Shown here: piece after piece, positions 8,468 through 63,132 of the stretch | Numbering within the stretch: position 1 is the first letter of the stretch | Layout of the letters: every line of letters starts with the position of its first letter | Assembly: GCA_902558835.1 (NCBI GenBank) | Contig: CACEFK010000002.1 | Location: 1-64,000 of the forward strand | Length of the DNA stretch: 64,000 nucleotides | From: an uncultured Pelagibacteraceae bacterium | GTDB taxonomy: Bacteria; Pseudomonadota; Alphaproteobacteria; Pelagibacterales; Pelagibacteraceae | Direction: 5' to 3' | Made by a program: the position numbers and the translations under genes | The notes under the pieces: generated by a model | Seen by the model: only the letters and a program-made list of their open reading frames with translations | Told to the model about the DNA's origin: nothing | Database searches by the model: none

Positions 8468-8481
8468 TAATTTAAGATTTG

Positions 8482-9387
8482 TTAATACTCTTTTTGAAAG
8501 ATATGTCTTTTTCCAGCTTCTTTAGCAAGATTAATTTGTTTTTGCCTCATCCTAAATCTTGATTTTTGATCATCTGTTAGATTATCGTGACAATTTGGAC
8601 ACGAAACACCCTTTTCATATTTTTTTGATTTTTTATCCTTAGGAGATATAGGTTTCCTACAACCGCTACACATTGAGTAAGAACCAACTTTTAGACCATG
8701 TTTTAAACTAATCCTGTTGTCAAAAACAAAACATTCACCTTTCCATAAACTTTTTTTCTTATTAGTTTTTTTCAGATAATTTAAAATTCCACCATTTAAC
8801 TGATAAATGTTATTAAAACCTTTTTTCTCTAAATATACAGATGCCTTTTCACAACGAATTCCACCAGTACAAAACATGGCTATAGGTTGATTTTTTTTTA
8901 ATTTTTTTAGATATTTTGGAAAATCTCTAAAGTTATCAACATCAGGATTAATTGCTCCCTTAAATGTTCCAACATCATACTCAAATGGTTTTCTCGCATC
9001 TATAAGAACTGTATCCTTTTCTTTAATCAGCTTATTCCATTTAATTGGGTCTACATGACTATCTTTTTTGTTTATTCTTTTATTTAAAGTTAAATTCATA
9101 GGAACAACTTCATTTTTAATTTTAACTTTAGGTTTGTGAAATGGTTGAAATGAACTTTTAGAGACATTACTGCTGTTAAATTCTTTTAATTTAAGAGTTC
9201 TTTTTAAATTGTTAATTGTGAATTTAATGTCTGCAGCTTTACCAGAGATAGTTCCATTTACCCCTTCTTTAGAGATAATTATCGTCCCTCTAATGTTTTT
9301 CTTTTTTAAAGTTTCTAATAAAATTTTTTGTTTTTTCTTTAGATAAGAAATTTTAACAAATTTATAAAAACCAACTACTTCAAACAT
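8482..9387 (-). CDS. trhO: tRNA uridine(34) hydroxylase / rhodanese-domain protein
   Basis: KEGVNGTISG, rhodanese loop MFCTGGIRCEKAS, C-terminal CxxC Zn motifs. Confidence 0.9.
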   Translation of the reverse strand: MFEVVGFYKFVKISYLKKKQKILLETLKKKNIRGTIIISKEGVNGTISGKAADIKFTINNLKRTLKLKEFNSSNVSKSSFQPFHKPKVKIKNEVVPMNLTLNKRINKKDSHVDPIKWNKLIKEKDTVLIDARKPFEYDVGTFKGAINPDVDNFRDFPKYLKKLKKNQPIAMFCTGGIRCEKASVYLEKKGFNNIYQLNGGILNYLKKTNKKKSLWKGECFVFDNRISLKHGLKVGSYSMCSGCRKPISPKDKKSKKYEKGVSCPNCHDNLTDDQKSRFRMRQKQINLAKEAGKRHIFQKEY

Positions 9388-10037
9388 TATAATTTTCTAC
9401 AAACAGTCATTCCATCACCAAGAGGAATTATTAATTTTTCAACTCTTGTATCCTTTGAAATATGATCGTTAAATTCTTTAATATTTTTAGTAAATTTATC
9501 ATTATTGTTTTCATTCACAACTTCTCCATACCATAAAACATTATCAATGATTATTAGACCATTTTTGTTTAATAATTGTAAAGAAAGTTCATAGTATTCA
9601 ATATAATTCATTTTATCAGCATCAATAAAAACTAAATCAAACTTTTCATTTTTAATTTCATCTAGACTTTCTAAAGCAGGTTTAATTAATGTTTTTATTT
9701 TATGATCTTGATTAGCTTTTTTAAAAAAATCTATTGCAACTTTATTAGTTTCTTCATTTTTATCTAAAGCAATTATTTTGCCGTCATCTGATAATGCCAA
9801 AGCCATAGATAACGTACTTAATCCTGTAAATGTACCTATCTCTAAAATTTTTTTGATATTTGAAATTTTTATAATTAAATGCAGAAATTGACTTTGTGAA
9901 ATTGAGATTTGCATTCTTTTGATATCACCAAGAGAAGTGTTGTAATCAATTATTTCTTTTTGGACTGGATGTAAATTAAATCCATGACTTAAAATATACT
10001 CTTGGAGTTCTTTAGTTATATTTAGGTCTGAACCCAT
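9387..10037 (-). CDS. SAM-dependent O-methyltransferase (caffeoyl-CoA OMT-like)
   Basis: KKILEIGTFTGLSTLSMALAL, FDLVFIDADKMNYIEYYE, IIIDNVLWYGEV. Confidence 0.9.
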   Translation of the reverse strand: MGSDLNITKELQEYILSHGFNLHPVQKEIIDYNTSLGDIKRMQISISQSQFLHLIIKISNIKKILEIGTFTGLSTLSMALALSDDGKIIALDKNEETNKVAIDFFKKANQDHKIKTLIKPALESLDEIKNEKFDLVFIDADKMNYIEYYELSLQLLNKNGLIIIDNVLWYGEVVNENNNDKFTKNIKEFNDHISKDTRVEKLIIPLGDGMTVCRKL

Positions 10038-10042
10038 AAATT

Positions 10043-11506
10043 CTAAAGTTTTTTCTTTAAAATCTCATTAACTAATTGAGGATTTGCTTTTCCACCAGAA
10101 ACTTTCATTACTTGACCTACAAAGAAACCAAATAATTTAACTTTACCTGATTTATATTCGGTAGCTTTGTCTCTGTTATCATCAATAACCTTATCTATTA
10201 GTGCCTCAAGTGCTTTTGGATCACTTTCTTGTTTTAAACCTTTTTCTTCAACAATTTTCTGAGGATCTTTGTCGTCTTCCATCATTTGTTCGAAAACTAT
10301 TTTTGCAATTTTTCCAGAAATTGTTCCGTCTTTAATTAAATTAATTAATTTTGATAAGTTGCCTGCACTTATAGGGCTTTCAGTTATTTCTAAATTTTTT
10401 TCATTTAACGCTGCAAATAATTCACCAATTATCCAATTTGTTGCAAGTTTTACATCAGACTTCTTAATTACATTTTCAAAGTAATTTGATGTTTCAATAT
10501 CAGAAACTAAAATGTTTGCTTCATAAGGAGATAACTTGAATTTTTCTATAAATCTTTTTTTCTTTTCATCTGGTAGCTCTGGAATTTCTGATTTTAAGTT
10601 TTCAATAAAATCATCTGAAACTTCTAATGGTAATAAGTCTGGATCTGGAAAATATCTATAATCATGAGCATCTTCTTTTGATCTCATTGATCTAGTTTCA
10701 TTTTTTTTAGTATCAAAAAGTCTTGTTTCTTGATCAATCATTTGACCATCCTCAATTAAATCAACTTGTCTGTTAGCTTCGTATTCTATTGCCATCTGCA
10801 TGAACTTTATTGAGTTAACATTTTTGATCTCACATCGGGTTCCAAACTCTTTTGAACCTTTTTTTCTAACAGATACATTTACATCGGCTCTCAAAGATCC
10901 TTCCTGCATGTTTCCATCACAGGTGCCTAAATATCTCATTATAGATCTTAATTTTTTAATATATGCATTTACTTCATCTGGAGACCTTAGGTCAGGTTTA
11001 CTTACAATTTCCATTAAAGCCACACCTGATCTATTTAAATCTACAAAAGTATTTTTAGGATCTAAATCATGAATGCTTTTGCCGGCATCTTGCTCCAAGT
11101 GTAATCTTTCTATACCTACCTCTTTTTGACCATCTGGCATATCAAGTATTACTTTACCCTCACCTACAATTGGATCTTTGAATTGTGAGATTTGATATCC
11201 CTGAGGTAAGTCTGCATAAAAATAATTTTTTCTATCAAAGACAGATCTCTTATTGATTTTAGCTTTTAAACCAATTCCTGTTTTGATAGCTTGTTTTACG
11301 CAATACTCGTTTATTATTGGCAACATTCCTGGAAATGCTGCATCAACTAAACTTACTTGGGTATTTGGCTCAGCTCCAAATTTGGTCGCTGATGTTGAAA
11401 ATAATTTTGATTCCGATGTAACTTGTGCATGAACTTCTAAACCAATGACAACTTCATATTGATTATCATGTCTATTAATTAGATATTCAGATTTGTTCTT
11501 ACTCAC
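10043..11506 (-). CDS. gatB: Aspartyl/glutamyl-tRNA amidotransferase subunit B
   Basis: [21 protein letters not shown]...[17 protein letters not shown]. Confidence 0.98.
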
Positions 11507-12960
11507 TTAATCCACCAATCATGTATATTGTTTTGAAAATTAATTTTTTCTTCCATAGCATATGCAATGTTTAAAATATTTTGTTCATCAAAAGCTTTAC
11601 CAATTATCTGCAATCCTAATGGATATCCTTTAGCATCATGGCCTGCGGGTATAGAAATTCCAGGCAAACCTGCTAAATTTACAGGAACAGTAAAAATATC
11701 ATTTAAATACATTGAAACCGGATCATTTGTTTTTTCACCAATTTTAAACGCAGAACTTGGAGTAGATGGGGTTAGAATTGCATCAACCTTTTTATAAGCA
11801 TCATCAAAATCATTTTTAATAAGTTTTCTTACCTTTTGTGCTTTGAGATAATAAGCATCATAATATCCTGAAGATAAAACATAAGTCCCGATCATTATTC
11901 TTCTTTGAACCTCAGCACCAAATCCTTCAGATCTAGTTTTTTCATACATATCAATAAGATTTTCTCCTTCAGCTCTAAAACCGTATTTAACACCGTCATA
12001 TCTAGCCAAATTAGATGAGGCCTCTGCTGGTGCTACTATGTAATAAGTTGGTAGTGCATAATTAGTATGAGGTAGAGATATATCGATAATCTCAGCACCA
12101 CAATCTTTTGCATATTCAATACCTTTTTTCCATAGGTCTTCTATTTCTTTAGGCATACCATCTACTCTATATTCTTTGGGTATTCCTATTTTTTTACCTT
12201 TAATATCTTTTGTTAATTCTTTGCTGTACTCGTTTCTTTTAAAATCTATTGAAGTAGAATCTTTTTCATCATAAGTGCTAATAACTTCCTGTAACAATGC
12301 ACAATCTTTAACATTTTGTGCCATTGGACCAGCTTGATCTAGAGATGATGCAAATGCTACAATTCCGTATCTGGAGCAACTACCATAAGTAGGTTTTAAT
12401 CCGACAGTGCCAGTAAATGAAGCAGGTTGTCTTATAGATCCGCCTGTATCTGTTCCAATAGTTATTGGTGTTAATTGAGCTGCTACTGCAGAAGACGATC
12501 CACCAGAAGATCCTCCTGGAACTAAATTTTTATCAATTGGGTTTTGTACATTGCCAAAAAAACTAGTTTCATTAGATGAACCCATTGCAAATTCATCACA
12601 ATTTAATTTACCCATTAAGATAGCTCCTTCATTCCAAATGTTTTGTGTAACTGTTGACTCGTATGTTGGAACAAAGTTATTTAAAATCTTGCTGCCTGCC
12701 GTAGTTCTTAAATCTCTTGTACAAAATAAATCTTTTACAGCCATTGGAATGCCAGGTAATTTTAGATCAAGATTAGGTTTTTCATCAAATTTTTTTGCTT
12801 TATTTAAAGCATTTGCATAATCTTCAGTTATATATGCATTTAATTCTTTTGATTTTTCAGATCTTTCAACAAATGCTTTAGCAACTTCACTTGAGGAAAG
12901 TTTTTTTCCTTTTATATTTTCTACTAACTCAGATAATGATTGTTTAGTTATATCTGACAT
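11503..12960 (-). CDS. gatA: Aspartyl/glutamyl-tRNA amidotransferase subunit A
   Basis: Amidase signature [13 protein letters not shown]...[14 protein letters not shown]. Confidence 0.98.
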
Positions 12961-13247
12961 TATTCAATTACCTTTGGTACTACAAAATAATCTTCATTTT
13001 CCTTAGGAGAATTTTTTATTACTTGATCTCGTAAGTTTTTACTTTTTACTTCATCTGACCTTAGTTTTAGGGTTGTTTCAGCAACAGAAGTTAATGGTTC
13101 AACATTGTCAGTTTTTAATTCGTTAAGTTTTTCAATAAAATCAAAAATTGAATTTAAATCTCCTGCAAGTTTCTCTGCTTTTTTCTCATCTACAGAAATT
13201 CTTGATAGTTTAGATATGTGCTTTATTGTTTTAAGATCGATGCTCAT
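12960..13247 (-). CDS. gatC: Aspartyl/glutamyl-tRNA amidotransferase subunit C (start at MSIDLKTIKHISKLSRI)
   Basis: IKHISKLSRISVDEKKAEKLAGDLNSIFDFIEKLNELKTDNVEP. Confidence 0.94.
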   Translation of the reverse strand: MSIDLKTIKHISKLSRISVDEKKAEKLAGDLNSIFDFIEKLNELKTDNVEPLTSVAETTLKLRSDEVKSKNLRDQVIKNSPKENEDYFVVPKVIE

Positions 13248-13297
13248 ATGGTATTTAAATATGTCGCAAACTATCACTTAAGTTTAAAATATACAAT

Positions 13298-13753
13298 ATG
13301 ATCACTATTGAAGAATTCAAAAAAAAACAGTCTGAAACCTCTAGATTGATTGGTTTAGATCTTGGTTCAAAAAGAATCGGTGTATCAATTTGTGATGAAA
13401 AACAGTCAATAGCCACACCTTTTAAAACGATCAATAAAACCAATAATGATGATCTAATCAACGAATTAAAAAAAATAATAGAGGAAAACAATATTAAAGG
13501 AATTATCATTGGATATCCAATTAACATGGATGGTTCATTAGGTCCTTCTGCTCAATCAGTAAGTGATGTATCTAAAAATATAGACCAAAATATTGATGTA
13601 GAAGTTTGCTTATGGGATGAAAGACTTTCAACTGTGGGGGCATTTAATCTATCTAGTCAGCTTGATGTTAATGTTTCTAAGCGTGAAAAAAACATAGATC
13701 AAAATGCAGCTGCATTTATTCTTCAAGGAGCTATAGATTATTTAAATAATTAA
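13298..13753 (+). CDS. ruvX: Holliday junction resolvase-like RuvX/YqgF
   Basis: IGLDLGSKRIGVSICDE...IIIGYPINMDGSLGPSAQ...WDERLSTVGA. Confidence 0.94.
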   Translation: MITIEEFKKKQSETSRLIGLDLGSKRIGVSICDEKQSIATPFKTINKTNNDDLINELKKIIEENNIKGIIIGYPINMDGSLGPSAQSVSDVSKNIDQNIDVEVCLWDERLSTVGAFNLSSQLDVNVSKREKNIDQNAAAFILQGAIDYLNN

Positions 13754-13795
13754 TCCTTGCCATTTAGGGGCTTTATAGCTATAGAGTTAATTTTA

Positions 13796-14737
13796 ATGGC
13801 AATCAAAACCAATAAAGCTATTAAAATTTCACAAAAACATCTGTTAGGTATCCAAGAATTATCAGTTAATGATATTAATTATATCTTGGATGAGTCAGAA
13901 GCTTTCATAAAATTAAATCAGAGTAAAAATAAAAAAATTGATGTGTTAAGAGGTAAAACACAAATAAATTTATTCTTTGAGCCATCAACTAGAACTCAAA
14001 GCTCATTTGAACTTGCTGGAAAAAGACTTGGTGCGGATGTTATGTCAATGAATATGGGTAACTCTGCAATTAAGAAAGGTGAAACTTTGATTGATACGGC
14101 AATGACCTTAAATGCAATGCATCCTGATATAATTGTGATCAGACATCAAGACTCTGGTGCATGTAATCTATTATCTCAAAAAGTTAATTGTGTCGTATTA
14201 AATGCTGGTGATGGTAGACGCGAACACCCTACCCAAGCATTATTAGATGCATTAACAATTAGAAATCGAAAAAAAAAAATTCAAGGATTAAAAATAGCAA
14301 TATGTGGGGATATACTTCATTCAAGAGTAGCTAGATCAAATATTTATCTTCTTACAATGTTAGGAGCTGAGGTTAATATAGTTGCTCCATCTAACCTGAT
14401 GCCAAAAGAAATTGAAAAATTTGGTGTAAATACTTTTACTGATATGAAAAAGGGCCTCAAAGATTGTGATATTGTGATGATGCTTAGATTACAAAATGAA
14501 AGAATGACCAGTTCATATCTTTCATCGAACAGAGAGTACTACGAATATTATGGATTAACACCAGATAAACTTGATCATGCAAAATCAGATGCTTTAATTA
14601 TGCATCCTGGTCCAATGAATAGAGGAATTGAAATTGATACAAGATTAGCTGATGACATAAACAAAAGTGTAATTAAAGAACAAGTTGAATTAGGTGTTGC
14701 TGTAAGAATGGCATGTTTAAAAATATTTTGTGAATAA
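13796..14737 (+). CDS. pyrB: Aspartate carbamoyltransferase catalytic subunit (start likely 13796)
   Basis: [47 protein letters not shown]. Confidence 0.97.
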
Positions 14738-16024
14738 ATGAAAAAACAATACTTTATAAATGCAAACATTATAGATCCTCATAATTCCATAAACGAAAAT
14801 GGTGGATTAATAATTGGAGAAGACGGAAAGATAGAAGCAATAGGAAAAAAGGTAAATACAAACAATTTACCAACTAGAGAAAAGCCTACTGACTTAAAAG
14901 GTAAATATATATTTCCTGGTATAGTGGATATGAGAGTTTTTGTAGGCGAGCCAGGATATGAATATAAAGAAAATTTTAGGACTTTAAGTAATGCAGCATT
15001 ATCTGGAGGAGTAACTTCCGTCGTAACCATGCCTAATACAGATCCAATTATAGATAATGTGTCAATTGTAGATTTTTTAAAAAGAAGAGGACGTGATAAG
15101 TCTAAAATAAATATCTTTCCTTGCGCTTCATTAACTCAAAACACTGATGGCACCAATATGACTGAATTTGGGTTACTAGCTAAAAAAGGAATTATTGCTT
15201 TTACTGACGGAGTAAAAACAATTCAAAATACTAGACTTATGTCTAGAATTATGAATTCAGCTAAAGATTTAGGATGTCTTATAATGCAACATGCTGAAGA
15301 TTACGATTTAGCTAAAAATGGCATGATTAATTCTGGTATTATTGCAACAAAACTAGGCTTATCAAGCATACCAGATATTGCTGAAAGAATTATAATTGAA
15401 AGAGATCTTACTCTCTTAGAAAAAACTAAATGTCGATATCATATATCTCAACTGTCAGCAGGAAAATCTGTAGATATAATTAAAGAACGTAAACAAAACG
15501 TTAAATTTACTTGCGGTGTATCAATAAACAATCTTTCATTAAATGAAAATGATATTGGAGATTTTAGAACATTTTTAAAATTATCACCTCCACTGCGAAG
15601 AGAAGAAGATCGAGAAGGTTTAGTTCAAGGATTAAAAGATAAAACTATTGATGTAATTGTTTCTGACCATAAACCTGAAGATGAAGAATCTAAAAGATTA
15701 ACTTTTGCACAAGCTGCAACTGGCGCATCTGGTATTGAAACATTGTTATCCTTAAGTTTAGAATTATTTCACAATGGGTCTGTAAAACTTGAAACTATAA
15801 TTCAAGCTTTAACATCTAACCCAGCAAAAATATTAAATATAAATAAAGGAAACCTGTCTATTGGTAATGATGCAGATTTTTGTATAGTAGATATCAATAA
15901 ACCGTGGATTGTAAAAAAAGAAAATTTAATCTCTAAATCTAAAAATACTTCAATTGAAGATAAGAAACTTCAAGGAAAAGTAACCAATACATTTGTAAAA
16001 GGTATAGAATTATTTAAAATATAA
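14738..16024 (+). CDS. pyrX: Dihydroorotase-like PyrC' (PyrX type), predicted non-catalytic
   Basis: DHOase scaffold (FPGIVDM..GEPGYEYKE, MPNTDPIID, SDHKPED) but HxH metal motif replaced by MRVF; adjacent to pyrB. Confidence 0.85.
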   Translation: MKKQYFINANIIDPHNSINENGGLIIGEDGKIEAIGKKVNTNNLPTREKPTDLKGKYIFPGIVDMRVFVGEPGYEYKENFRTLSNAALSGGVTSVVTMPNTDPIIDNVSIVDFLKRRGRDKSKINIFPCASLTQNTDGTNMTEFGLLAKKGIIAFTDGVKTIQNTRLMSRIMNSAKDLGCLIMQHAEDYDLAKNGMINSGIIATKLGLSSIPDIAERIIIERDLTLLEKTKCRYHISQLSAGKSVDIIKERKQNVKFTCGVSINNLSLNENDIGDFRTFLKLSPPLRREEDREGLVQGLKDKTIDVIVSDHKPEDEESKRLTFAQAATGASGIETLLSLSLELFHNGSVKLETIIQALTSNPAKILNINKGNLSIGNDADFCIVDINKPWIVKKENLISKSKNTSIEDKKLQGKVTNTFVKGIELFKI

Positions 16025-16026
16025 AA

Positions 16027-16605
16027 ATGGAACTTTTTATAATAGGTATAATCTCGTACCTAATGGGATCAATTCCTTTTGGATTAATTTTAACCAAAGT
16101 ATTTTTAAAAAAAGATATTAGAGAAATCGGTTCTGGTAATATTGGCGCAACAAATGCTTTAAGAACTGGTAACAAGTTAATTGGTTATTCAACACTAATA
16201 CTTGATGTGTTAAAGGCAGTAATACCTGTTTTATACGTTAAAATTAATTTTCCTGATGCAGTATATATATCAGCTTTATGTGCTTTTATAGGTCATGTGT
16301 TTCCAGTATGGTTAAAATTTAAAGGTGGTAAAGGTGTAGCGACATATGTTGGGATACTTTTTTCTTTAAATATTATTTTTGGATTAGTGTTTGGTATTTG
16401 TTGGTTAATAATTTTTTTTATTTCTAAATATTCATCTTTATCTTCCTTGATAGGATCACTTTCTACACCTGTTTATATTTTAATTTTTGAGGGTTCTGAA
16501 AATGTATTTTTTTACATAATAATGTTTATTTTAATATTTTTTACCCACAGAGAAAATATTAAACGCTTGAAAAATAAAGAAGAAACTAAGACAAAAATTT
16601 ATTAA
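16027..16605 (+). CDS. plsY: Glycerol-3-phosphate acyltransferase PlsY
   Basis: YLMGSIPFGLILTK, GSGNIGATNALRTGNK, KFKGGKGVAT. Confidence 0.96.
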   Translation: MELFIIGIISYLMGSIPFGLILTKVFLKKDIREIGSGNIGATNALRTGNKLIGYSTLILDVLKAVIPVLYVKINFPDAVYISALCAFIGHVFPVWLKFKGGKGVATYVGILFSLNIIFGLVFGICWLIIFFISKYSSLSSLIGSLSTPVYILIFEGSENVFFYIIMFILIFFTHRENIKRLKNKEETKTKIY

Positions 16606-16642
16606 TTTGACTATCAAACTCTTTTGAGTAGTTTGTTATTTT

Positions 16643-19225
16643 ATGAATCTAGTCATAGTTGAAAGCCCTGCTAAAGCGAAAACAATTAATAAATATTTAG
16701 GTGATAACTACACCGTTTTAGCTAGCTATGGTCATATTAGAGATCTTCCTTCAAAAAATGGATCAGTTGATCCTGATCAAAATTTTAAAATGGAATGGGA
16801 AGTTGATAGCTTTTCAAAAAAATATTTAAAAGAAATTACTGATGCTGCGAAAGATTCTTCAAAAATAATTCTTGCGACCGACCCAGATCGTGAAGGTGAA
16901 GCAATAGCATGGCATGTAAAAGAATATTTACACGAAAAAAAACTTTTAAAGGATAAAGAAATTGAACGTGTGGTTTTTAACGAAATAACAAAAAAAGCTG
17001 TGACATATGGTATTGAAAATCCAAGACAGATAGAGCCCTTATTAGTCGATGCATACATGGCTAGAAGAGCACTAGATTATTTGGTGGGATTTAATATATC
17101 ACCAATACTTTGGACTAAATTACCTGGTTCAAAATCAGCAGGCAGAGTTCAATCTGTTGCACTAAAATTGATTACTGAAAGAGAACATGAAATTGAATTA
17201 TTCAAACCTGAAGAGTTTTGGACTTTAAGTATTAATTTTCAGGATAAAAACAAAAGCAAAATTACAGCAAGTATTTCTCAACTTGATGGAGAAAAAATTG
17301 AAAAATTCTCATTTAAAAATAAAGAGGAAATTGAAAAGGCAATTTCAAATATTAAGACCAAAAAATTTAACATAACTGATATTTCCTCAAAAGTTGTTAG
17401 CAGAAATCCCTCGGGACCCTTTACTACTTCAACACTTCAGCAAGTTGCTTCTAGTAGATTAGGTTTTGGTGCATCAAGAACAATGCAAATAGCACAAAAA
17501 CTTTATCAAGGAATAGAAATTGAGGGAGATACAGTTGGGTTAATTACTTATATGAGAACGGATGGAACTAATTTATCAGTTGATGCTGTCACTGATTTTA
17601 GAAATTTTATTAAAAAACAATATGGTAACGAATACTTGCCAGAAAATCCAAATAATTACTCAGGAAAAAAAGCAAAAAATGCTCAGGAAGCTCATGAAGC
17701 AATAAGACCAACTGACATTAATAGAAATCCAGACTCTATTAAAAAGTATTTAAGTTCTGACCAGCAAAAATTATATTCCTTGATTTGGTCTAGAGCACTA
17801 TCGTCTCAAATGGAAACAGCAAAATTTGATAGAAATACAATAACGATCGAGTCTGAAGATGGCAAAACAATATGTAAATCAAGCGGATCGGTTTTGAAAT
17901 TTGATGGATTTTTAAAAGTTTATTCAAATCAAGGCAAAGATGATGATGAACAAATTTTACCTGAGATGTCAAAAGGACCAATTAATATAGAAGCTCTTAT
18001 TGATGAACAACATTTTACCCAGCCTCCCCCACGTTACTCTGAGGCTAGTTTGGTTAAAAAATTAGAAGAATTGGGAATTGGAAGGCCTTCAACTTATGCA
18101 AGTATAATTTCAACAATAGCAAATAGAGGTTATGCAGAAATAGTTAATAAAAGATTTTTCCCAACTGATAGAGGTAAATTAATTTCTGCGTTTTTAGAAA
18201 AATTATTTTCAAAGTATGTGGATTATAACTTTACAGCTGGACTAGAGGATCAGCTAGATGAAATAACTTCTGGAAAAGAAAGTTGGTTAAAAGTCTTAGA
18301 AATGTTTTGGAAAGATTTTAATAGTAATGTTTCAGAGGTAAAAGAAAAAAGAACTAGAGAGGTTTTAGATCTTTTAAATGAAAGTTTGGGAGCATTGATA
18401 TTTGACACTGATAAAGAAGGAAACATAGTTAGAAAATGTCAGTTATGTGAAACGGGTTCCCTTAGTTTAAAAAATAGTTTTAGAGGAGGTGCCTTTATTG
18501 GATGTTCAAACTATCCTGAATGTAAATTTACAAGACCACTATCAAAAGCTAAAGCGGCTGCTCAATCACAACTTGCTGAACCAAAATTTCTTGGAAAACA
18601 CGAAAATGGAAATGATATTTTTCTTAAAAATGGAAGATTTGGTCCTTATCTTCAGTATGAGAAAGTTCTTGAAGAAAATATTGAAGAAGAAAAACCTAAA
18701 AAAAGAAAAAAAACTAAGAAAAAGAAACCTGAAGTTAATGAACTATTGAAAAATGTATCTATACCAAAAGGAATTGAATTAGAAAGTATTGATTTAGATA
18801 AAGCAAAATTTTTATGTTCGCTTCCTAAATCATTAGGCATTAATCCAGAAAATCAAAAGGAAATCACTTTGAACACTGGTAGATTTGGACCATATTTAAA
18901 ATGTGAAAATAAATCAGCTAGAATAGAAAATGTCGAAGAAATTTTTTCTATAGGATTAAATCGAGCAATTACACTCATAGCTGAAGCAAAACCTGGAAGG
19001 ATGTCTTCTTCAATTATAAAAGATTTAGGGGAGCATCCTGAGGATAAAAAGCCGGTCCGAATCATGAAAGGTCAATATGGACCATACATTAAATACAAAT
19101 CTCTAAATGCAACAATCCCAGAGGAAAAAGACCCAGTAGAGCTAACAATGGAAGAGGCTCTTATACTAATTGAGAAAAGAAGAGAATACGATAAAAATAA
19201 AAAATCTAAAAAAAAGAAAAAATGA
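16643..19225 (+). CDS. topA: DNA topoisomerase I
   Basis: VESPAKAKTINKYLG, DPDREGEAIAWH, YMRTDGTNLS, C-terminal Zn-finger and TopA repeats. Confidence 0.98.
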   Translation: MNLVIVESPAKAKTINKYLGDNYTVLASYGHIRDLPSKNGSVDPDQNFKMEWEVDSFSKKYLKEITDAAKDSSKIILATDPDREGEAIAWHVKEYLHEKKLLKDKEIERVVFNEITKKAVTYGIENPRQIEPLLVDAYMARRALDYLVGFNISPILWTKLPGSKSAGRVQSVALKLITEREHEIELFKPEEFWTLSINFQDKNKSKITASISQLDGEKIEKFSFKNKEEIEKAISNIKTKKFNITDISSKVVSRNPSGPFTTSTLQQVASSRLGFGASRTMQIAQKLYQGIEIEGDTVGLITYMRTDGTNLSVDAVTDFRNFIKKQYGNEYLPENPNNYSGKKAKNAQEAHEAIRPTDINRNPDSIKKYLSSDQQKLYSLIWSRALSSQMETAKFDRNTITIESEDGKTICKSSGSVLKFDGFLKVYSNQGKDDDEQILPEMSKGPINIEALIDEQHFTQPPPRYSEASLVKKLEELGIGRPSTYASIISTIANRGYAEIVNKRFFPTDRGKLISAFLEKLFSKYVDYNFTAGLEDQLDEITSGKESWLKVLEMFWKDFNSNVSEVKEKRTREVLDLLNESLGALIFDTDKEGNIVRKCQLCETGSLSLKNSFRGGAFIGCSNYPECKFTRPLSKAKAAAQSQLAEPKFLGKHENGNDIFLKNGRFGPYLQYEKVLEENIEEEKPKKRKKTKKKKPEVNELLKNVSIPKGIELESIDLDKAKFLCSLPKSLGINPENQKEITLNTGRFGPYLKCENKSARIENVEEIFSIGLNRAITLIAEAKPGRMSSSIIKDLGEHPEDKKPVRIMKGQYGPYIKYKSLNATIPEEKDPVELTMEEALILIEKRREYDKNKKSKKKKK

Positions 19226-55423: not shown

Positions 55424-55499
55424 GCCCTTGTAGCTCAGCTGGTAGAGCAATTGATTTGTAATCAATAGGTCCGCGGTTCGAATCCGTGCGGGGGCACCA
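55424..55499 (+). tRNA. tRNA-Thr (TGT), CCA encoded
   Basis: GCCCTTGTAGCTCAGCTGGTAGAGCAATTGATTTGTAATCAATAGGTCCGCGGTTCGAATCCGTGCGGGGGCACCA. Confidence 0.96.
55450..55471 (+). repeat. Putative att core, left copy (inside tRNA-Thr anticodon arm)
   Basis: ATTGATTTGTAATCAATAGGTC, identical to 63097..63118. Confidence 0.75.
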
Positions 55500-55598
55500 C
55501 TAAAATCTTATTTATTTTCATCAAATTCAAATTTTGCTTTAATTTTTCAAAAATAAAAATTATTTATTAATGCGATAGAAAGGAAGCAAGTAGAACTA

Positions 55599-55626
55599 AG
55601 TGAAGTGAATTTGAAGTGAATTTTAA
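55599..55626 (+). repeat. 28-bp direct repeat, left copy; two tandem TGAAGTGAATT units
   Basis: AGTGAAGTGAATTTGAAGTGAATTTTAA, identical to 62999..63026. Confidence 0.9.
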
Positions 55627-55685
55627 TTATCTAGTAAAAGCTTATAAGTAAATAACTTAGTTCAAAAAAATTAATACTTCCAATA

Positions 55686-58600
55686 TTATTGCGAGCCTTT
55701 ATTAAATTTATTTAAATAATTTTCTATGTAAATTTTTTCTTCAGGAGTAATAAGAAAAAGATCATAGACTAAATTGTCAATTTTATTATCAATTAACAAA
55801 TTATCAGGATCCTTAATAATTTTTTCAACGTATGAAATTAACTCTTTTTGTTTTTTTTGATCATTTAAATCAGGAATTGGAAAATTTTTGAGTTCATTCA
55901 ATTTAAATTGAGGAAATAAACCTCTTTGTAATTTTGCAAATCTTACAATGAACCAAAAAGTAATAAGTTTTGAATTTATTATCCCAAGTACCAACAGAGG
56001 ATTAATTTTAAAATCATAAACATTCATATAATTTATATCATTTAAAAAGATTTTTTTAAAAAATGTTGAAACAATACTATATGGTGGCTTTGATGGTATT
56101 TGTCTCACAAGAACTCTCTCCGAGCTAAATATAGAAATATTTCTTGGTTCAGCTAAATGTTTTCCATAACTCAAATATTTACCTGTCCATGAATGGGAAT
56201 ATCTCTTGATATCTTTGCCATCTAGATACTTGTGGTATGATTCATTTTCTTTTTGATTACTGTGAAAAATTTTGTTTTCTAAAATTTCTCTTGTTTGTGG
56301 AGGTGTTCCCTTGCCTACTTGATATGATTTTAAACCTGACTGAACTTTTGCATAATATGGATACAAAGTTTTCGAATTTTGAATTACTTTGTTAGAAATT
56401 GTCTTAAGTTTATTATCTGCAATAATATCAAAATTAAAAATATAGTTATAACTTTCATCATTTAAAAGTTCAGTTTTAGCTATTGATGTTTTAAAAATAA
56501 TTTCATCTTTCTCTGAGTAAATAGTAATCTTACTATATATATCCTTTTTATTTTTACAAAAACTAACTACACATGCATCTACAGCAGCATTCTTAAAAAC
56601 TTGTTTAGAAAAATTTATTATTTCAATTCTACTATATTTTAAAATTAATTTTCTTAAATCCTCATTCGTGTTTATTGTCATCCAGTTATTTGGAATAATA
56701 AAAGATAAGAAACCATTTTCTTTTAAAAGATTTATGCCTAACTCTATAAATAATGCATAAGTATTTAATTGATATTGAGCAAGTTTATATTTTTTAACAT
56801 AATATTTTTTATCAACATCCTCAAATTTTTTTAGTTTACTAGACCTAGCAAAAATATATGGCGGATTTCCAATAACTAAATCAAAACCATTATTTTCAAA
56901 AACATCTAGAAAAAAAATTTTCCAAAGAAAAAAGTTTCTTTCAATATTATTTGAAAACACACTTTTGTCATTTGATGTAGATGTTTTTTTTAAAATAAGA
57001 GAATTAATCTTTTCTTCAAGTTTGAGTCTTAGATCTTTCTTTATTTTTCTGCTACTTAAATTGAAGTATTTTTTTTGAATTTGAATCAATTCTTTTTTAA
57101 TTTCCTCAGTTTGAACATCAGTAAACAATTCGTTATCCTCATCAACATCAAAATCATGATTCTTATATTTTTGTACTAAACTATTACCCTGCAAAATTTT
57201 ATAACTTAAATTGGGTAAAGGATTTGGATTATTAACATTTTTTTCTTCAACAATTAATGATAACCAAAGTCTAAGTTTTGAAATTTCTACAGCTCCTCTG
57301 TCTATATCAACACCATAAATTGAGTTTTCAATAAATTCTCTTTTAAAAAGATAAATACTTTTTTTTCCACCAAAAAAATTATCAATTCTAAATCTAATTT
57401 TAACAATTTCATTCATAATCAAAACAGGAAATGCACCAGACCCTATTGCTGGATCGCATATCTTTATATTAGCTAATAAATTATCTATAGATTTTAAAAT
57501 TTCTTTTTCATTAAATTCATCAATTTTTTCTTTTAATTCCTCTTCATCTAGGAAATCAAAATTAACTAAATCATAAATAAAATTTTCATGATGAGAGAGA
57601 TGTGATTTTGATATTAAAAAATTTTTAATAATTTGTTTGCTCATAAAAGATACAACAAATCTAGGTGTATAATAAGAGCCTTTTCCTTTTCTAAAATTTT
57701 CAGGTAAAAGTTTTTCGAAGACTTTACCTAACATTTCGGGATCAATACCTATCTCTACATCCAATCCATCATTCTCGTCTACTGTAAAGTTATATAAATC
57801 AAATATATCTAAAATTCCGTCCCGAGAAATATTTGAAAAAATAGAATTTGGTATATTTAGTTTTTCTTTTTTCCAATCATAATTATCTAATTCTTCGAAT
57901 AAGCCTCCATTAAGATATGGGATTTTACAATCTAGAATTTCAACATAATTATTTTTATTTTCCTTGTTCAATCCATCATAAAGTAAATGCTCAAAGAAAT
58001 CATTGTAGAAATTTTTTTTATTTTTATTAAATAATTCAAAACTATTTCTTAAAAAAGATTTATCTCCATTTGATAATGTTTGATTTTTTTTAGCACCCAT
58101 ACACCCTTTTTTTTGAAGAAAATAACAAAAGACAACTTGTCCTAAAAATTTTTTAGCAAATAAGTCAATTTCAATTTTTTTTTGTTCTAAGAATATTCTG
58201 AATTTTTTATCCTTATAAAGATATTCGGTAATTTTAAGAAATAAGTTTTTATATTTTTGAAAAAATTCGTCACTTATTACTTCAATATCAAATCTATTTT
58301 TTAAATCATCATAGTTCTTTATCTTTGTTTGAAACTGTGCAGTTGGTGTGTGAACTTTTGATCCAGGTCCCAAAAAAAAAGATAATCTTTTTGGCATTGA
58401 AAATTCTCTGGTAACAACTGTATCTGAAAGCCATTTATAATTACTTTCAATCAGTGAAAATCTATAATTTTGAGAATTTTTTGTATAAAAAATTATAATT
58501 GCCTTTTCTATGGACAATTTTTTAAAAATAGAAAAAACTTTTTTAGTCAGTGAAACTCTTGGATCGCTTATTGATGAATGTTCAAGTTCAAAAATTTGAA

Positions 58601-58769
58601 GATTATTTAAACTTTTTACTTCTCCTATTTTAATTATTTTTTTTGTTAATTCATTCTTGGTATCATCTTTAAATTCAATTTCTTCAATTATTAAATCATC
58701 AGGTAATATTTTTTTTAAAAAATTACAAAATTCTTGTCTTTTGTAAGGTAAAGAAAAATCATGCATCAC
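55686..58769 (-). CDS. Eco57I/TaqI-like N6-adenine DNA methyltransferase with C-terminal target-recognition domain and uncharacterised N-terminal domain
   Basis: YYTPRFVVSFMSKQI, motif I ICDPAIGSGAF, motif IV FDLVIGNPPYIFARSS, TaqI-C-like YLDGKDIKRYSHSWTGKYLSYGKHLAEPR. Confidence 0.92.
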   Translation of the reverse strand: MMHDFSLPYKRQEFCNFLKKILPDDLIIEEIEFKDDTKNELTKKIIKIGEVKSLNNLQIFELEHSSISDPRVSLTKKVFSIFKKLSIEKAIIIFYTKNSQNYRFSLIESNYKWLSDTVVTREFSMPKRLSFFLGPGSKVHTPTAQFQTKIKNYDDLKNRFDIEVISDEFFQKYKNLFLKITEYLYKDKKFRIFLEQKKIEIDLFAKKFLGQVVFCYFLQKKGCMGAKKNQTLSNGDKSFLRNSFELFNKNKKNFYNDFFEHLLYDGLNKENKNNYVEILDCKIPYLNGGLFEELDNYDWKKEKLNIPNSIFSNISRDGILDIFDLYNFTVDENDGLDVEIGIDPEMLGKVFEKLLPENFRKGKGSYYTPRFVVSFMSKQIIKNFLISKSHLSHHENFIYDLVNFDFLDEEELKEKIDEFNEKEILKSIDNLLANIKICDPAIGSGAFPVLIMNEIVKIRFRIDNFFGGKKSIYLFKREFIENSIYGVDIDRGAVEISKLRLWLSLIVEEKNVNNPNPLPNLSYKILQGNSLVQKYKNHDFDVDEDNELFTDVQTEEIKKELIQIQKKYFNLSSRKIKKDLRLKLEEKINSLILKKTSTSNDKSVFSNNIERNFFLWKIFFLDVFENNGFDLVIGNPPYIFARSSKLKKFEDVDKKYYVKKYKLAQYQLNTYALFIELGINLLKENGFLSFIIPNNWMTINTNEDLRKLILKYSRIEIINFSKQVFKNAAVDACVVSFCKNKKDIYSKITIYSEKDEIIFKTSIAKTELLNDESYNYIFNFDIIADNKLKTISNKVIQNSKTLYPYYAKVQSGLKSYQVGKGTPPQTREILENKIFHSNQKENESYHKYLDGKDIKRYSHSWTGKYLSYGKHLAEPRNISIFSSERVLVRQIPSKPPYSIVSTFFKKIFLNDINYMNVYDFKINPLLVLGIINSKLITFWFIVRFAKLQRGLFPQFKLNELKNFPIPDLNDQKKQKELISYVEKIIKDPDNLLIDNKIDNLVYDLFLITPEEKIYIENYLNKFNKGSQ

Positions 58770-61700
58770 TAATTTCTTCAGATATAATTAGATGTTCTTC
58801 GCTTTCGTCAATTTTATTTGCTTTATTCAATATTTTTTTTAGATAGTCTGGTGAAATAATTGAATTTAATTTTTCTAACTCATTATTCAGTTTTGATAAC
58901 CTTATTTCTCTTATCATCTTCAAATATCCACCTGGTAATGCATCTAATTTTTCTAAAACATAAATAAGATCCTGAATATAAGAATTATATTTTTTTGGAG
59001 CTTTCTCAAGAATAGCATTTAACTTATCTAATGTTCTTTTCTTACCTCTATCTAAAGCAGTAAGAAATTTTTTATTAAATAAATTTTTTGATATTTCTGA
59101 GTAATATTTTTCAAAATTATCAGATACCATAAAAGGTTTTTCAGTTTGATTTGACTCAAAAATTTTAAAAAACTTCTCATTGGATAATTTCAAATATTCT
59201 TTTTTTTTATTTAAAAATCTAAAAATTGATTCATCTCCTTTTTTGGCATAAACAATTATGCCATTACCGTTTTCTTTTTTTATTTTTCGTCTAATTCTAA
59301 TTTGAGGTGGCAACTTTCTTATTTCTTCAATAAATTCTGGGCTTTCATCTCTCAAATTATAAATAAGATTTTCATAATATGTTTCTGGGTTTCTTATTTC
59401 GTCAGAGGCATTTTCTATTTCGTCCTCAAAAAATCGACTTAATTCCTCATCTGAGGTGAGTATTTTTGTATCATCACCAAATAATGCTTGAAAAACTGAA
59501 ATCTTTATTTTTGCTATTTTCTTTGTTCTTACCTCTTTTTCTCCTCTTGATGATGGAAAAAAATTATAAATAAATAATTCATCATAGACTTTTTTATTTA
59601 TACGATTTATCCGACCAAATCTCTGAATTACCTTGGTTGGATTATATGGAATATCGTAATTAATTATTGTACCGGCTCTATTCAGATTATAACCCTCAGA
59701 AATGGTATCAGTAGCCATTAAAACATTGTAATCATCTGCTTTATCTTTTTCATTTATACCTGCATCAAAGTTTGCTTTTATAATTTGTTTATTTATCTTC
59801 TTTATTGAATCTTCAGAAGTGTATTTAAAAACTTTAATATTTCTCTCTTTTAATTTTTTAGCAACATAATTTGCTGTATCTGCAAATTCTGAAAATATTA
59901 AAACTTTTCTTTTATCTTTTTTATTTAATTCATTTTCTAGTGTTTCGTAAAATTTTTCAAATTTTGGATCTATAAAGTTTGTTTTTAATCTTGTTTCCCA
60001 TTTTTGTTTTAATTGAGTTAATTCTTTTATGTCATTGATTAAATCTTTATAAAATTCTGGTCTTAATTCAGTCTTATCAATGAACCAAGCGCCTTTAGCT
60101 TTGAAATCCTCTACACTTTTTAAATCATCAAAATTTTTATTACTTTGTATATTTTCTTCAAATTCAAAAACTTCAGGCATTGAGCCTTTTTTATATATTG
60201 GTATTTTGCCTTTAGTATCATACCAATCTTTTATTTTAACATTTGAACTAATTATATTGTCAAGGGTTTCCATAAATGAATATACGCAACTTTCAAATCT
60301 TCTCACTAATAGTCTTTTCATAAAATCTGCAATATTTTCTAAAGATTTTTTTAAAAGTTCTTTATCTTTTTCCTCTAAACCTGCTCTTTCAGCAATCTGA
60401 CTAAGATATTTTGGCAGAATATAAGAAGCTGACTTATATCTTGCAGCAACATAACGCTTCTCATCTGTCTTTGGTGATATTACTTCCAAAGTATCACTAT
60501 ATAACTCGCTTATCTCACCTAAATTATAATCTATCAATTTTGGTGGGTTTCTTTTAGGAAATTCTAATTTTTTTAATTTTATATCCTTTTTATACCGATC
60601 TATACCCTCCAAGTCTAACCTGGATCTTCTGATTACTAATGGCGATAAAATTGATTTTATTTGATCAGTTAAATTATTCATTTTTTCTTTTATCTTGGGG
60701 TCAAATTTTTTTGTTGTATCAATTTTTGTTATATCATTATACTCTTTAACTAATTCCTTAAATTGATCTGATAAATTTTCTATATTCTGTAAAGATGATT
60801 TTGTAGGTATTTGAAAAAGTTTAATCATATTGAATATATCTTGAGGTCGATTATTAAAGGGTGTTGCAGATAAAAGAATTACTTTGTTATTTTGACAAAG
60901 TTTATGCAGTAAAGAATAATCATTAGTTAAGTCATTACGAAATGAGTGAGCTTCATCAATGATAATTAAATTTTCAGAAGTGGTTCTTTCTCGTTTAAAT
61001 GCGTTTTCAATTTTTCCTCTTGAAACTACACTTCCCTGAATCATTGTTATAGTCTTGTAATCCTCCCAACCATCAACTAAATGAGGTGGGGCAATAATAA
61101 TTGTGTTTAGATTTAAATTTTTTGCAATAGCTGAGGCAATCACACTTTTACCTAATCCCACAACATCTGCAATTATTACACCTTGGTGTTTATTGATAAT
61201 ATCCAAGCCTTTTAAAATGGCATCTTCTTGATATTTAATATCTAAAAATTTACCATCAGACAATTCTTTAGGCATCAATATTTCGTTATCTTTTTTTTCT
61301 TGAAAATATTCATCTAGTACCTTCACAAATAAATTGTAGGGCTTAGGTATTTTATTAATCCAAGTTTTTTTTACTACTTTATTTTCAAATTCATCATAGT
61401 TGTCTATATTAGCTACATCTATACAGTTAGGGCTATTCCATCGTTCTAAAAATTGATTAAGATGCGCTTCATAATCAGAAGGTTCTCTAAACAAATAATT
61501 ACCCTCTATATTATCTAAAAAACCTGATCTTGTCAGATTACTGGAGCCAGCTAAAACAATTCCAGGTGTTAAATTATTTTGATTAAATTTTTTTGAATAT
61601 TTAAATACAAATGTTTTTGAATGATCATTTTTTTCTTTCCAGCATTTAATATTTAAAGATCCATCCTTAATTTTTTTAATAAACATATTGTAAGATTCTT

Positions 61701-61992
61701 GGTCATCCTTTTGGACTAAAATATCAGTATTATTAATATCATTTTTTAAATAATCAAAATAAGAGTCTTTAATAGATAAATTTGAATTTAATATTGTAGA
61801 AATTTTTGAATCGTACCCTATTCCTATCATTATATTTATTTTTTTATTTTCAAGTTGTTTATAAATTTGTTTAAAACCTGAAAAATAAAAATAACCTACT
61901 TCAAAAAAAAGTTCTTCACATGATGGCAGAATATTGTCTGCTATAGACTTTACAGTACTTTCTTTTGTTTGGTTGTTTATAAGTGTTGTCAT
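58759..61992 (-). CDS. PLD-nuclease-domain / SNF2-like superfamily 2 helicase fusion (restriction/defence type)
   Basis: N-terminal PLD-like HSKTFVF...GSSNLTRSGFLDNIEGN; helicase ADVVGLGKSVIASAIA, IIDEAHSFRND, LLSATPFNNRPQDIF, ATDTISEGYNLNRAGTIINYDIPYNPTKVIQRFGRINR. Confidence 0.93.
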   Translation of the reverse strand: MTTLINNQTKESTVKSIADNILPSCEELFFEVGYFYFSGFKQIYKQLENKKINIMIGIGYDSKISTILNSNLSIKDSYFDYLKNDINNTDILVQKDDQESYNMFIKKIKDGSLNIKCWKEKNDHSKTFVFKYSKKFNQNNLTPGIVLAGSSNLTRSGFLDNIEGNYLFREPSDYEAHLNQFLERWNSPNCIDVANIDNYDEFENKVVKKTWINKIPKPYNLFVKVLDEYFQEKKDNEILMPKELSDGKFLDIKYQEDAILKGLDIINKHQGVIIADVVGLGKSVIASAIAKNLNLNTIIIAPPHLVDGWEDYKTITMIQGSVVSRGKIENAFKRERTTSENLIIIDEAHSFRNDLTNDYSLLHKLCQNNKVILLSATPFNNRPQDIFNMIKLFQIPTKSSLQNIENLSDQFKELVKEYNDITKIDTTKKFDPKIKEKMNNLTDQIKSILSPLVIRRSRLDLEGIDRYKKDIKLKKLEFPKRNPPKLIDYNLGEISELYSDTLEVISPKTDEKRYVAARYKSASYILPKYLSQIAERAGLEEKDKELLKKSLENIADFMKRLLVRRFESCVYSFMETLDNIISSNVKIKDWYDTKGKIPIYKKGSMPEVFEFEENIQSNKNFDDLKSVEDFKAKGAWFIDKTELRPEFYKDLINDIKELTQLKQKWETRLKTNFIDPKFEKFYETLENELNKKDKRKVLIFSEFADTANYVAKKLKERNIKVFKYTSEDSIKKINKQIIKANFDAGINEKDKADDYNVLMATDTISEGYNLNRAGTIINYDIPYNPTKVIQRFGRINRINKKVYDELFIYNFFPSSRGEKEVRTKKIAKIKISVFQALFGDDTKILTSDEELSRFFEDEIENASDEIRNPETYYENLIYNLRDESPEFIEEIRKLPPQIRIRRKIKKENGNGIIVYAKKGDESIFRFLNKKKEYLKLSNEKFFKIFESNQTEKPFMVSDNFEKYYSEISKNLFNKKFLTALDRGKKRTLDKLNAILEKAPKKYNSYIQDLIYVLEKLDALPGGYLKMIREIRLSKLNNELEKLNSIISPDYLKKILNKANKIDESEEHLIISEEISDA

Positions 61993-62058
61993 AAATAAAA
62001 CTTATTATATTACAAAAGTATTTTTATGCCTTTATGAAAACATTTTTTTGGCTGATTG

Positions 62059-62083
62059 AAAACATATAATTTAAATATGTTTT
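62059..62083. promoter_or_regulatory. Dyad upstream of helicase gene, candidate operator
   Basis: AAAACATAT-AATTTAA-ATATGTTTT, 9-bp perfect arms. Confidence 0.4.
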
Positions 62084-62239
62084 ATTAATGCATTGGATTT
62101 CAATCCTTTTCTATCGTATTCCGCTATTTTTATTATCTCCCTTGTTGCGTAATTCGAATAAACAGAAAAGGGTTGAGTCTATAACCAACTATAAACTTTT
62201 AACCCTCAAAAAATCAATCAACAATAGGAGTTCTAATAT

Positions 62240-62425
62240 ATGGAGATAGGCCGTGTCTGTAAGTACTGTCACGTGAGTGCTTACGTTGCTTATGACAACT
62301 GTGACCCAGTTTATAAAAAAACATTTAAGTTCGAAATTTTACCAGGTGAACACAACAGTTTAGTCTGGGACAAGATAATCAAAATATTTACCAAAAATGG
62401 ATACAAAGTGGAGCTTAAATCATGA
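62240..62425 (+). CDS. Small hypothetical protein (61 aa) with CxxC near N-terminus
   Basis: MEIGRVCKYCHVSAYVAYDNCDPVY...; AGGAG Shine-Dalgarno-like motif upstream; ATGA overlap with next gene. Confidence 0.6.
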   Translation: MEIGRVCKYCHVSAYVAYDNCDPVYKKTFKFEILPGEHNSLVWDKIIKIFTKNGYKVELKS

Positions 62426-62988
62426 AAAGAGTTTTACTTATTATTTTATTACACTTATCTCTATTTTTTATTGTCTTTGCTTACCATGCGCAAGCTGAAG
62501 AAGATGAAATGTGGACAATTGATAAATACGAAAGTTTAACATTTGCAAGAGTATATGGAGAAGTAATTCATGGAGACAGTTTAAATTTCTTTATTCAATC
62601 AAAAGATAACTGTGAAAAAGTTTGGCATAATTTCACTTTTTACACATATGAGCAGCCTGGAGATATAAAACAACTATTAAACAGAAATATACCAATAAAA
62701 ATTAATGAAGAAGAAGTTACTGCTTATGTAGATCATATACAGCCATTTTTAATGGGTTACAGAGTTTTATTATCCTTAGGATCGTTTCCAATTAAAGAAT
62801 ATATTTATAAATTAAATAATTTTTATATTGAGGAACAAAGATTTGAGATTGAAATAATTGATGGGATTGATTTTAAGGCAAGTAAATATTTTGATATATC
62901 AATAAATAGATGGAATTTAGATAAACTCGTACCATCTGTTTTAGAAGCACATAAAAGGTGTAAAGAAATTAAAAATACTGACTCTTAA
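62422..62988 (+). CDS. Hypothetical secreted/periplasmic protein
   Basis: N-terminal signal peptide MKRVLLIILLHLSLFFIVFAYHAQAEE; no family recognised. Confidence 0.7.
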   Translation: MKRVLLIILLHLSLFFIVFAYHAQAEEDEMWTIDKYESLTFARVYGEVIHGDSLNFFIQSKDNCEKVWHNFTFYTYEQPGDIKQLLNRNIPIKINEEEVTAYVDHIQPFLMGYRVLLSLGSFPIKEYIYKLNNFYIEEQRFEIEIIDGIDFKASKYFDISINRWNLDKLVPSVLEAHKRCKEIKNTDS

Positions 62989-62998
62989 ATAAAGTTTT

Positions 62999-63026
62999 AG
63001 TGAAGTGAATTTGAAGTGAATTTTAA
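62999..63026 (+). repeat. 28-bp direct repeat, right copy
   Basis: AGTGAAGTGAATTTGAAGTGAATTTTAA, identical to 55599..55626. Confidence 0.9.
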
Positions 63027-63096
63027 AAACTTCAATAGACAGGACTCAATTAGTTAAGTATTATCAATGTTAATGAAAGGAAAAATAATTAACTTT

Positions 63097-63118
63097 ATTG
63101 ATTTGTAATCAATAGGTC
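63097..63118 (+). repeat. tRNA-Thr anticodon-arm remnant, right copy (putative distal att)
   Basis: ATTGATTTGTAATCAATAGGTC identical to 55450..55471; homology continues weakly as TGCAG vs CGCGG. Confidence 0.75.
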
Positions 63119-63132
63119 TGCAGATATAAATT

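Follow-up and report, generated by a model that had tools for sequence, protein, structure and literature searches.

Two adjacent genes, Mod and Res, are the ordinary layout of Type III restriction-modification (R-M) systems. Their specificity lies inside the methyltransferase (MTase), a beta-class Mod (N6_N4_Mtase), and the second subunit is a ResIII helicase with a PD-(D/E)XK nuclease. SauUSI, a Type IV enzyme of S. aureus, is a single chain in which an N-terminal phospholipase D (PLD) nuclease is followed by a superfamily 2 (SF2) motor; it acts alone, has its own C-terminal recognition domain and cuts DNA containing 5-methylcytosine or 5-hydroxymethylcytosine (PMC7913695). Here we describe two overlapping genes from an uncultured Pelagibacteraceae bacterium, found in a stretch of 64,000 nucleotides (contig CACEFK010000002.1 of assembly GCA_902558835.1, positions 1 to 64,000), which we call the window. 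One encodes a PLD nuclease fused to an SNF2-type motor, the other an N6-adenine MTase.

Related parts occur in several other described systems. The CglI and NgoAVII R-M systems use a PLD nuclease, an SF2 ATPase and an MTase for ATP-dependent cleavage (PMC4267653, PMC5737866), but they consist of three genes, the PLD domain is fused to a B3 recognition domain rather than to the helicase, and the ATPase is of the DEAD family, with Z1. Type-2 BR (HKD-SNF2 helicase, N6-MTase, DUF499 and DUF3780) and Hma combine an N-terminal HKD domain on an SNF2 helicase with an N6-MTase (PMC12839542, PMC8565338), but are defined by the DUF499 ATPase. The archaeal SNF2-PLD/COG1743/DUF499 operon contains another published HKD-SF2 fusion with other partners (PMC7641849). 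PbeA, of the PbeABCD or CxC-ABC system, is also an HKD nuclease fused to an SF2 helicase, but its partners are an ABC ATPase and a DndE-like protein (PMC10853773). The PLD-SF2 fusion as such was thus already known, from SauUSI (PMC7913695), PbeA (PMC10853773) and the Type-2 BR helicases (PMC12839542).

The window's pair resembles a Type III system in having two genes, with specificity that would lie inside the MTase and a putative helicase-nuclease as second subunit, but it is built from a gamma-class Eco57I-type MTase, an SNF2 motor and a PLD nuclease. It resembles SauUSI in the order of nuclease and motor within one chain, and both domains align to SauUSI in one stretch; it differs in that recognition and methylation would belong to the partner MTase and that the motor is RapA/SNF2-like. 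The published HKD-SF2 fusions (Type-2 BR, PbeA, SauUSI and the archaeal SNF2-PLD operon) all differ from the pair in their partners. We read the pair as an ATP-dependent R-M system of Type III-like logic, with a probability of roughly 0.73. Its parts and logic are already known, while the combination is compact, widespread and apparently unnamed.

The PLD-SNF2 protein

The 1077-residue fusion claimed in the original prediction was confirmed as an open reading frame (ORF; Table 1), and it matches both SNF2-rel and Helicase_C above the Pfam cut-offs. The nuclease domain became clear at the level of the family. In the window's protein alone PLDc_2 scores 22.9-26 bits, slightly under the Pfam cut-off of 27, and a phmmer search with the N-terminal 400 residues alone returned ATPase matches only. 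A profile built from 17 N-terminal domains was needed to find SauUSI, which was then the top match (E=2.7e-13); its active site aligned with H124/K126...GSSN...N.E.N. Behind it the same profile ranked BfiI and R.NgoAVII, as weak and non-significant matches. PLDc_2 is present in all 17 family members and RE_NgoFVII, the PLD family of NgoFVII-type restriction nucleases, in 13 of them. When 22 relatives were aligned, H124, K126, G149, S150 and N152 were invariant.

Each motor chain has one HKD motif, which means that two copies are needed to make up an active site. SauUSI and BfiI build their PLD active sites in this way (PMC7913695). The best solved match of the motor is RapA, both by sequence profile and by fold, with eukaryotic SNF2 enzymes also close by fold. 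The AlphaFold model is a monomer of fair quality, with a predicted local distance difference test score (pLDDT) of 80. Neither Pfam nor the secondary structure of the model gave a recognisable DNA-recognition domain in the motor protein, and residues 846-1077 have no Pfam match.

The methyltransferase partner

The neighbouring gene had been predicted to encode an N6-adenine MTase with its own recognition domain, and Eco57I and TaqI_C both score above the Pfam cut-offs. The DPxxGSGA and NPP motifs are invariant in the 18 MTases aligned. Judged from sequence, the pair has two of the things generally expected of an R-M system: an MTase with intact S-adenosylmethionine (SAM) and NPPY motifs and a linked nuclease with an intact active site. 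The MTase model is a monomer of fair quality (pLDDT 74), whose fold matches CamA best and also BrxX/PglX, MmeI and BpuSI.

The reading frame of the MTase runs from 55686 to 58769 on the reverse strand and has a GTG start (1027 residues). Starting at GTG 58769 would give an overlap of 11 nt with the motor gene; starting at ATG 58766 would give 8 nt, and the overlap is 8 nt in three homologous pairs. The MTase therefore probably starts at ATG 58766. The predicted overlap of 58759-58769 is real, but its true extent is probably 58759-58766.

In the model, the elements of the MTase's N-terminal domain follow one another in a PD-(D/E)XK-like order. However, no conserved D...(D/E)xK was found among the 18 aligned members, and R71 is the sole invariant residue in the first 150, besides a near-invariant M1. 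The domain is presumably a dead nuclease or a scaffold. As no nuclease residues are conserved there, the PLD motor is the likely cutter.

The two genes as a recurrent unit

Relatives of the motor were drawn from plasmids, from IMG/VR and from genomes of the same order and phylum; a scan of genome contigs with the single protein had given one relative only, and that partial. In a tree of 41 motor sequences the window's protein lies within a 26-member clade with support of 100/100. The MTase comes directly after the helicase in 22 of these 26, with at most one gene between them in 24, and just upstream of it in the remaining two. The gaps within directly adjacent pairs range from -14 to +20 nt. 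Among 31 loci compared, no additional gene family is common to more than 5.

The two partners diverge in a correlated way: over 28 pairs Mantel r=0.79, a value that none of 9,999 permutations reached (largest 0.34). The two genes travel together, although this does not in itself demonstrate contact. Comparison with the nearest complete relative, the pair in genome G684, shows where the partners differ. The motors are 58% identical, with a fraction of 0.42-0.77 identical in every 100-residue stretch. The MTases are 0.33-0.67 identical over residues 1-500, but only 0.10-0.26 across residues 701-1000, the stretch that contains the recognition domain. Turnover of the recognition part with conservation of the remainder is the hallmark of R-M specificity change, and the hypervariable domain thus fits an R-M system that switches specificity.

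The distribution of the motor is patchy: it is present in 10 of 397 genomes of the order, and within the tree the order's motors fall into at least three separate branches. The two-gene unit was found in marine genomes (marine alphaproteobacteria), in Bacteroidota, in bacteroidal plasmids and in phages. The pair is real and recurrent, and probably functional. The proposal of a minimal two-gene system of translocase-nuclease and MTase gains from the recurrent pairing, the correlated divergence, the hypervariable recognition domain, the lack of a third conserved gene and the lack of a clean match to a catalogued system; its novelty is smaller than it had seemed, as neither the two-gene layout nor the PLD-SF2 fusion is new.

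Some loci show variations around the pair. A 464-residue gene lies between helicase and MTase in two of them (L009 and L029), and on a P. distasonis plasmid (L008) its homologue, a Schlafen/AlbA_2 protein, lies directly upstream of the pair. Two IMG/VR virus contigs (L031 and L034) have a syntenic structural block in common, with head protease, portal and endolysin in L031; the helicase-MTase pairs that occupy the same place in the two contigs belong to opposite halves of the tree. This is cargo replacement on a phage backbone.

Proposed mechanism and alternative explanations

In an R-M system of this kind, the TaqI_C domain would let the MTase recognise an asymmetric site, and its NPPY site would methylate an adenine, protecting the host DNA. 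On unmethylated invading DNA the MTase would serve the PLD-SNF2 protein as specificity subunit; the PLD-SNF2 protein would hydrolyse ATP and either move along the duplex or contact a second complex there. Cleavage would follow once two PLD half-sites had dimerised to give a single active site, the arrangement described for SauUSI and BfiI. We infer complex formation, translocation, cleavage, the methylated base and phage protection alike. The pair is better described as methylation-protected than, as in the original prediction, 'methylation-guided'. It is also possible, and we suggest it tentatively, that a Type IIG-like MTase with a dead nuclease serves as specificity and modification subunit for a separate SauUSI-type PLD translocase, and that this is a distinct, unnamed R-M type of marine alphaproteobacteria, Bacteroidota, plasmids and phages.

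Several points weigh against the Type III-like reading. Restriction is deduced from sequence, and the structure models are fair (pLDDT 74 and 80) and monomeric. The closest solved relative of the motor, RapA, is not a defence protein. Correlated divergence is expected for any two genes that are inherited together. Finally, the top PADLOC models for the MTase are those of Type IIG R-M enzymes, which would make the helicase an add-on. This last point bears on an unlikely alternative, in which the MTase is by itself a Type IIG enzyme that cuts through a nuclease at its N-terminus, the PLD-SNF2 gene being accessory to it or serving defence separately. REase_MTase_IIG models are indeed the best PADLOC matches of all 18 MTases (396 bits for the window's) and fit the MTase part strongly, and the modelled order of elements in the N-terminal domain would suit such a nuclease. 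The family nevertheless lacks the nuclease motif, and the MTase has the helicase adjoining it in most of the clade and diverging in step with it.

A modification-dependent system, Type IV- or Pgl-like, in which the motor cuts marked DNA and the MTase marks the invader or sets the trigger, might be expected from the closest solved PLD relative, SauUSI, which belongs to Type IV and cleaves modified DNA (PMC7913695), and from the nearness of the MTase fold to BrxX/PglX. We think this quite unlikely. In SauUSI the mark is read by a recognition domain at the C-terminus of the enzyme itself (PMC7913695), and the search of the motor gave no counterpart of it; the hypervariable recognition domain of the MTase suits classical R-M better, and PglZ is absent from the assembly, which is 87.5% complete. 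It is very unlikely that the pair is what remains of, or derives from, a Type-2 BR / Hma, DISARM or ARMADA system after loss of other genes. An HKD-SNF2 helicase and an N6-MTase are parts of Type-2 BR too (PMC12839542), and DrmD is the best NCBIfam match, at 126 bits; but DUF499 is missing from 38 records or genomes with such helicases, and intact two-gene units recur across marine genomes, phages and bacteroidal plasmids, which is not the picture of one decayed locus. The most improbable alternative is a pair with no role in defence, either epigenetic or recycling RNA polymerase, made of a RapA-like motor and an orphan MTase. RapA is the best match of the motor by structure and sequence, and CamA, the best fold match of the MTase, is an orphan regulatory MTase. 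The invariant PLD active site, the carriage on a mobile island, phage and plasmid, the patchy distribution and the switching of the recognition domain all argue against it.

If the pair does restrict, it would be a compact two-gene design for ATP-dependent R-M, with a swappable specificity part and a PLD motor as cutter. It would then be useful for testing how translocation brings PLD half-sites together, and for the study of marine bacterial methylomes.

Membership of known systems

The pair matched none of the curated models above its cut-off as a known system. A clean match to a described two-gene subtype would have counted against the original prediction; none was found among the PADLOC and NCBIfam models, nor did the open-access literature, with REBASE and subscription papers outside the search, contain a named two-gene system of a PLD helicase and an Eco57I enzyme.

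By domain families the pair is not Type III, with its gamma-class MTase, SNF2 motor and PLD nuclease. By layout it is not Type IV or SauUSI-like, as the MTase partner is conserved and Pfam found no recognition domain in the motor, nor is it Type IIG, as there is no conserved nuclease motif in the 18 MTase N-terminal domains. HsdS and PglZ had been reported missing from the window, and both HsdS (PF01420), needed for Type I membership, and PglZ (PF08665), needed for BREX membership, are absent from the whole 87.5%-complete assembly. So is DUF499, whose absence from 38 records (the window's own genome and 37 others) rejects membership of Type-2 BR / Hma. The idea of a condensed DISARM-like system did not survive: the match to DrmD, which reaches about 126 bits where the cut-off demands 610, reflects SNF2 motor homology only. 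No YprA-like helicase (DrmA/ArmC) or DUF1998 protein is present among the island's four genes, with no dedicated search of the genome. The NCBIfam model phospholipD_antiphage (NF042964) gave 104.6 bits against a curated cut-off of 1100.

The best PADLOC model for the motor is C3a139, 'HKD+Snf2', which it resembles in full-length architecture (121 bits over residues 28-997, with no cut-off given). Strong members of C3a139 score 400-450 bits and form a separate clade with a different operon layout, and we did not accept C3a139 as the identity of the pair. In one such locus (L073, genome G904, 8048-16934) the C3a139-scored SNF2 helicase is the first gene of an operon that also encodes DUF4391 and Type III Mod and Res; the gene layout is similar in L072 and L075-L077, domains having been scanned in L073 alone. 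The PbeA model was matched at 1e-20 by only 2 of 22 motor relatives.

The tRNA-Thr island

The pair has evidently reached the host with a small mobile island that adjoins a tRNA gene. The island is 7.65 kb long (55450-63121) and lies between attachment (att) repeats of which 22 bp are exact (55450-55471 and 63097-63118; chance expectation 0.00), with identical 28-nt arm repeats just inside both ends (Table 1). The site is empty in three other genomes (G462, G357 and G012), where NAD kinase immediately follows tRNA-Thr.

Table 1. Features of the pair and of the island that carries it, in window coordinates
Feature	Position	Strand	Basis
PLD-SNF2 translocase-nuclease, Res-like subunit, 1077 residues, ATG start	58759..61992	-	ORF, Pfam, PADLOC, conservation, AlphaFold model, family profile
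N-terminal HKD/PLD nuclease domain, residues 1-195; HxK at 61615-61623, GSSN, E163/N165	61408..61992	-	SauUSI 7clg profile match, PLDc_2, RE_NgoFVII, invariant H124/K126
SNF2/RapA-like SF2 motor, residues 240-845; Walker A 61147-61167, DEAH, QRxGRxxR	59458..61275	-	Pfam and RapA matches
C-terminal alpha+beta region, residues 846-1077; candidate MTase-docking region	58762..59457	-	Model secondary structure
Gamma-class N6-adenine MTase with TaqI_C-type recognition domain, Mod-like subunit; ATG 58766 start preferred	55686..58766	-	Eco57I, N6_Mtase, TaqI_C; folds; start context
MTase N-terminal alpha-beta3-alpha-beta2 domain, residues 1-140; presumed dead nuclease or scaffold	58350..58769	-	Model secondary structure; 18-member alignment
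MTase catalytic core; NPPY at 56856-56867	56445..57491	-	Domain scan, alignment
Target-recognition domain (TaqI_C), hypervariable among close relatives	55770..56432	-	Identity to the G684 pair
tRNA-Thr(TGT), island integration site	55424..55499	+	
att repeat within the tRNA-Thr anticodon arm	55450..55474	+	
Second att repeat, opposite island end; 22 bp exact, 24/25 overall	63097..63121	+	
28-nt arm repeat (two GAAGTGAATTT units), left island end	55599..55626	+	
28-nt arm repeat, identical copy, right island end	62999..63026	+	
Other island cargo: 61-residue ORF and 188-residue, probably secreted protein of unknown function	62240..62988	+	

A second island, in genome G560 (L092, G560:C2, 1820-7570), has the tRNA-Thr att core and GAAGTGAATTT arm repeats of the window's island. 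Its cargo is entirely different and comprises an SNase alongside apparent membrane proteins, MotA/ExbB-like ones among them. Neither island was seen to carry an integrase. The same att core and arm repeats around different cargo suggest that the two islands are one mobile-element family with exchangeable cargo, and the G560 cargo is possibly another defence system. The window's island shows a highly streamlined ocean bacterium taking up candidates for phage defence as exchangeable cargo of tiny tRNA islands.

Pairs elsewhere also lie beside tRNA genes. The G684 pair (L082, 3565-11147) has tRNA-Ser on one side and a duplicated 39-bp fragment of this tRNA on the other, and two others abut tRNA-Val (L086, 9263-9337) and tRNA-Met (L087, 6747-6823). 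The 188-residue island protein (62422-62988) has a 71% identical homologue in G781 (L087:15494-16054), encoded a few kb away from a helicase-MTase pair that is not orthologous.

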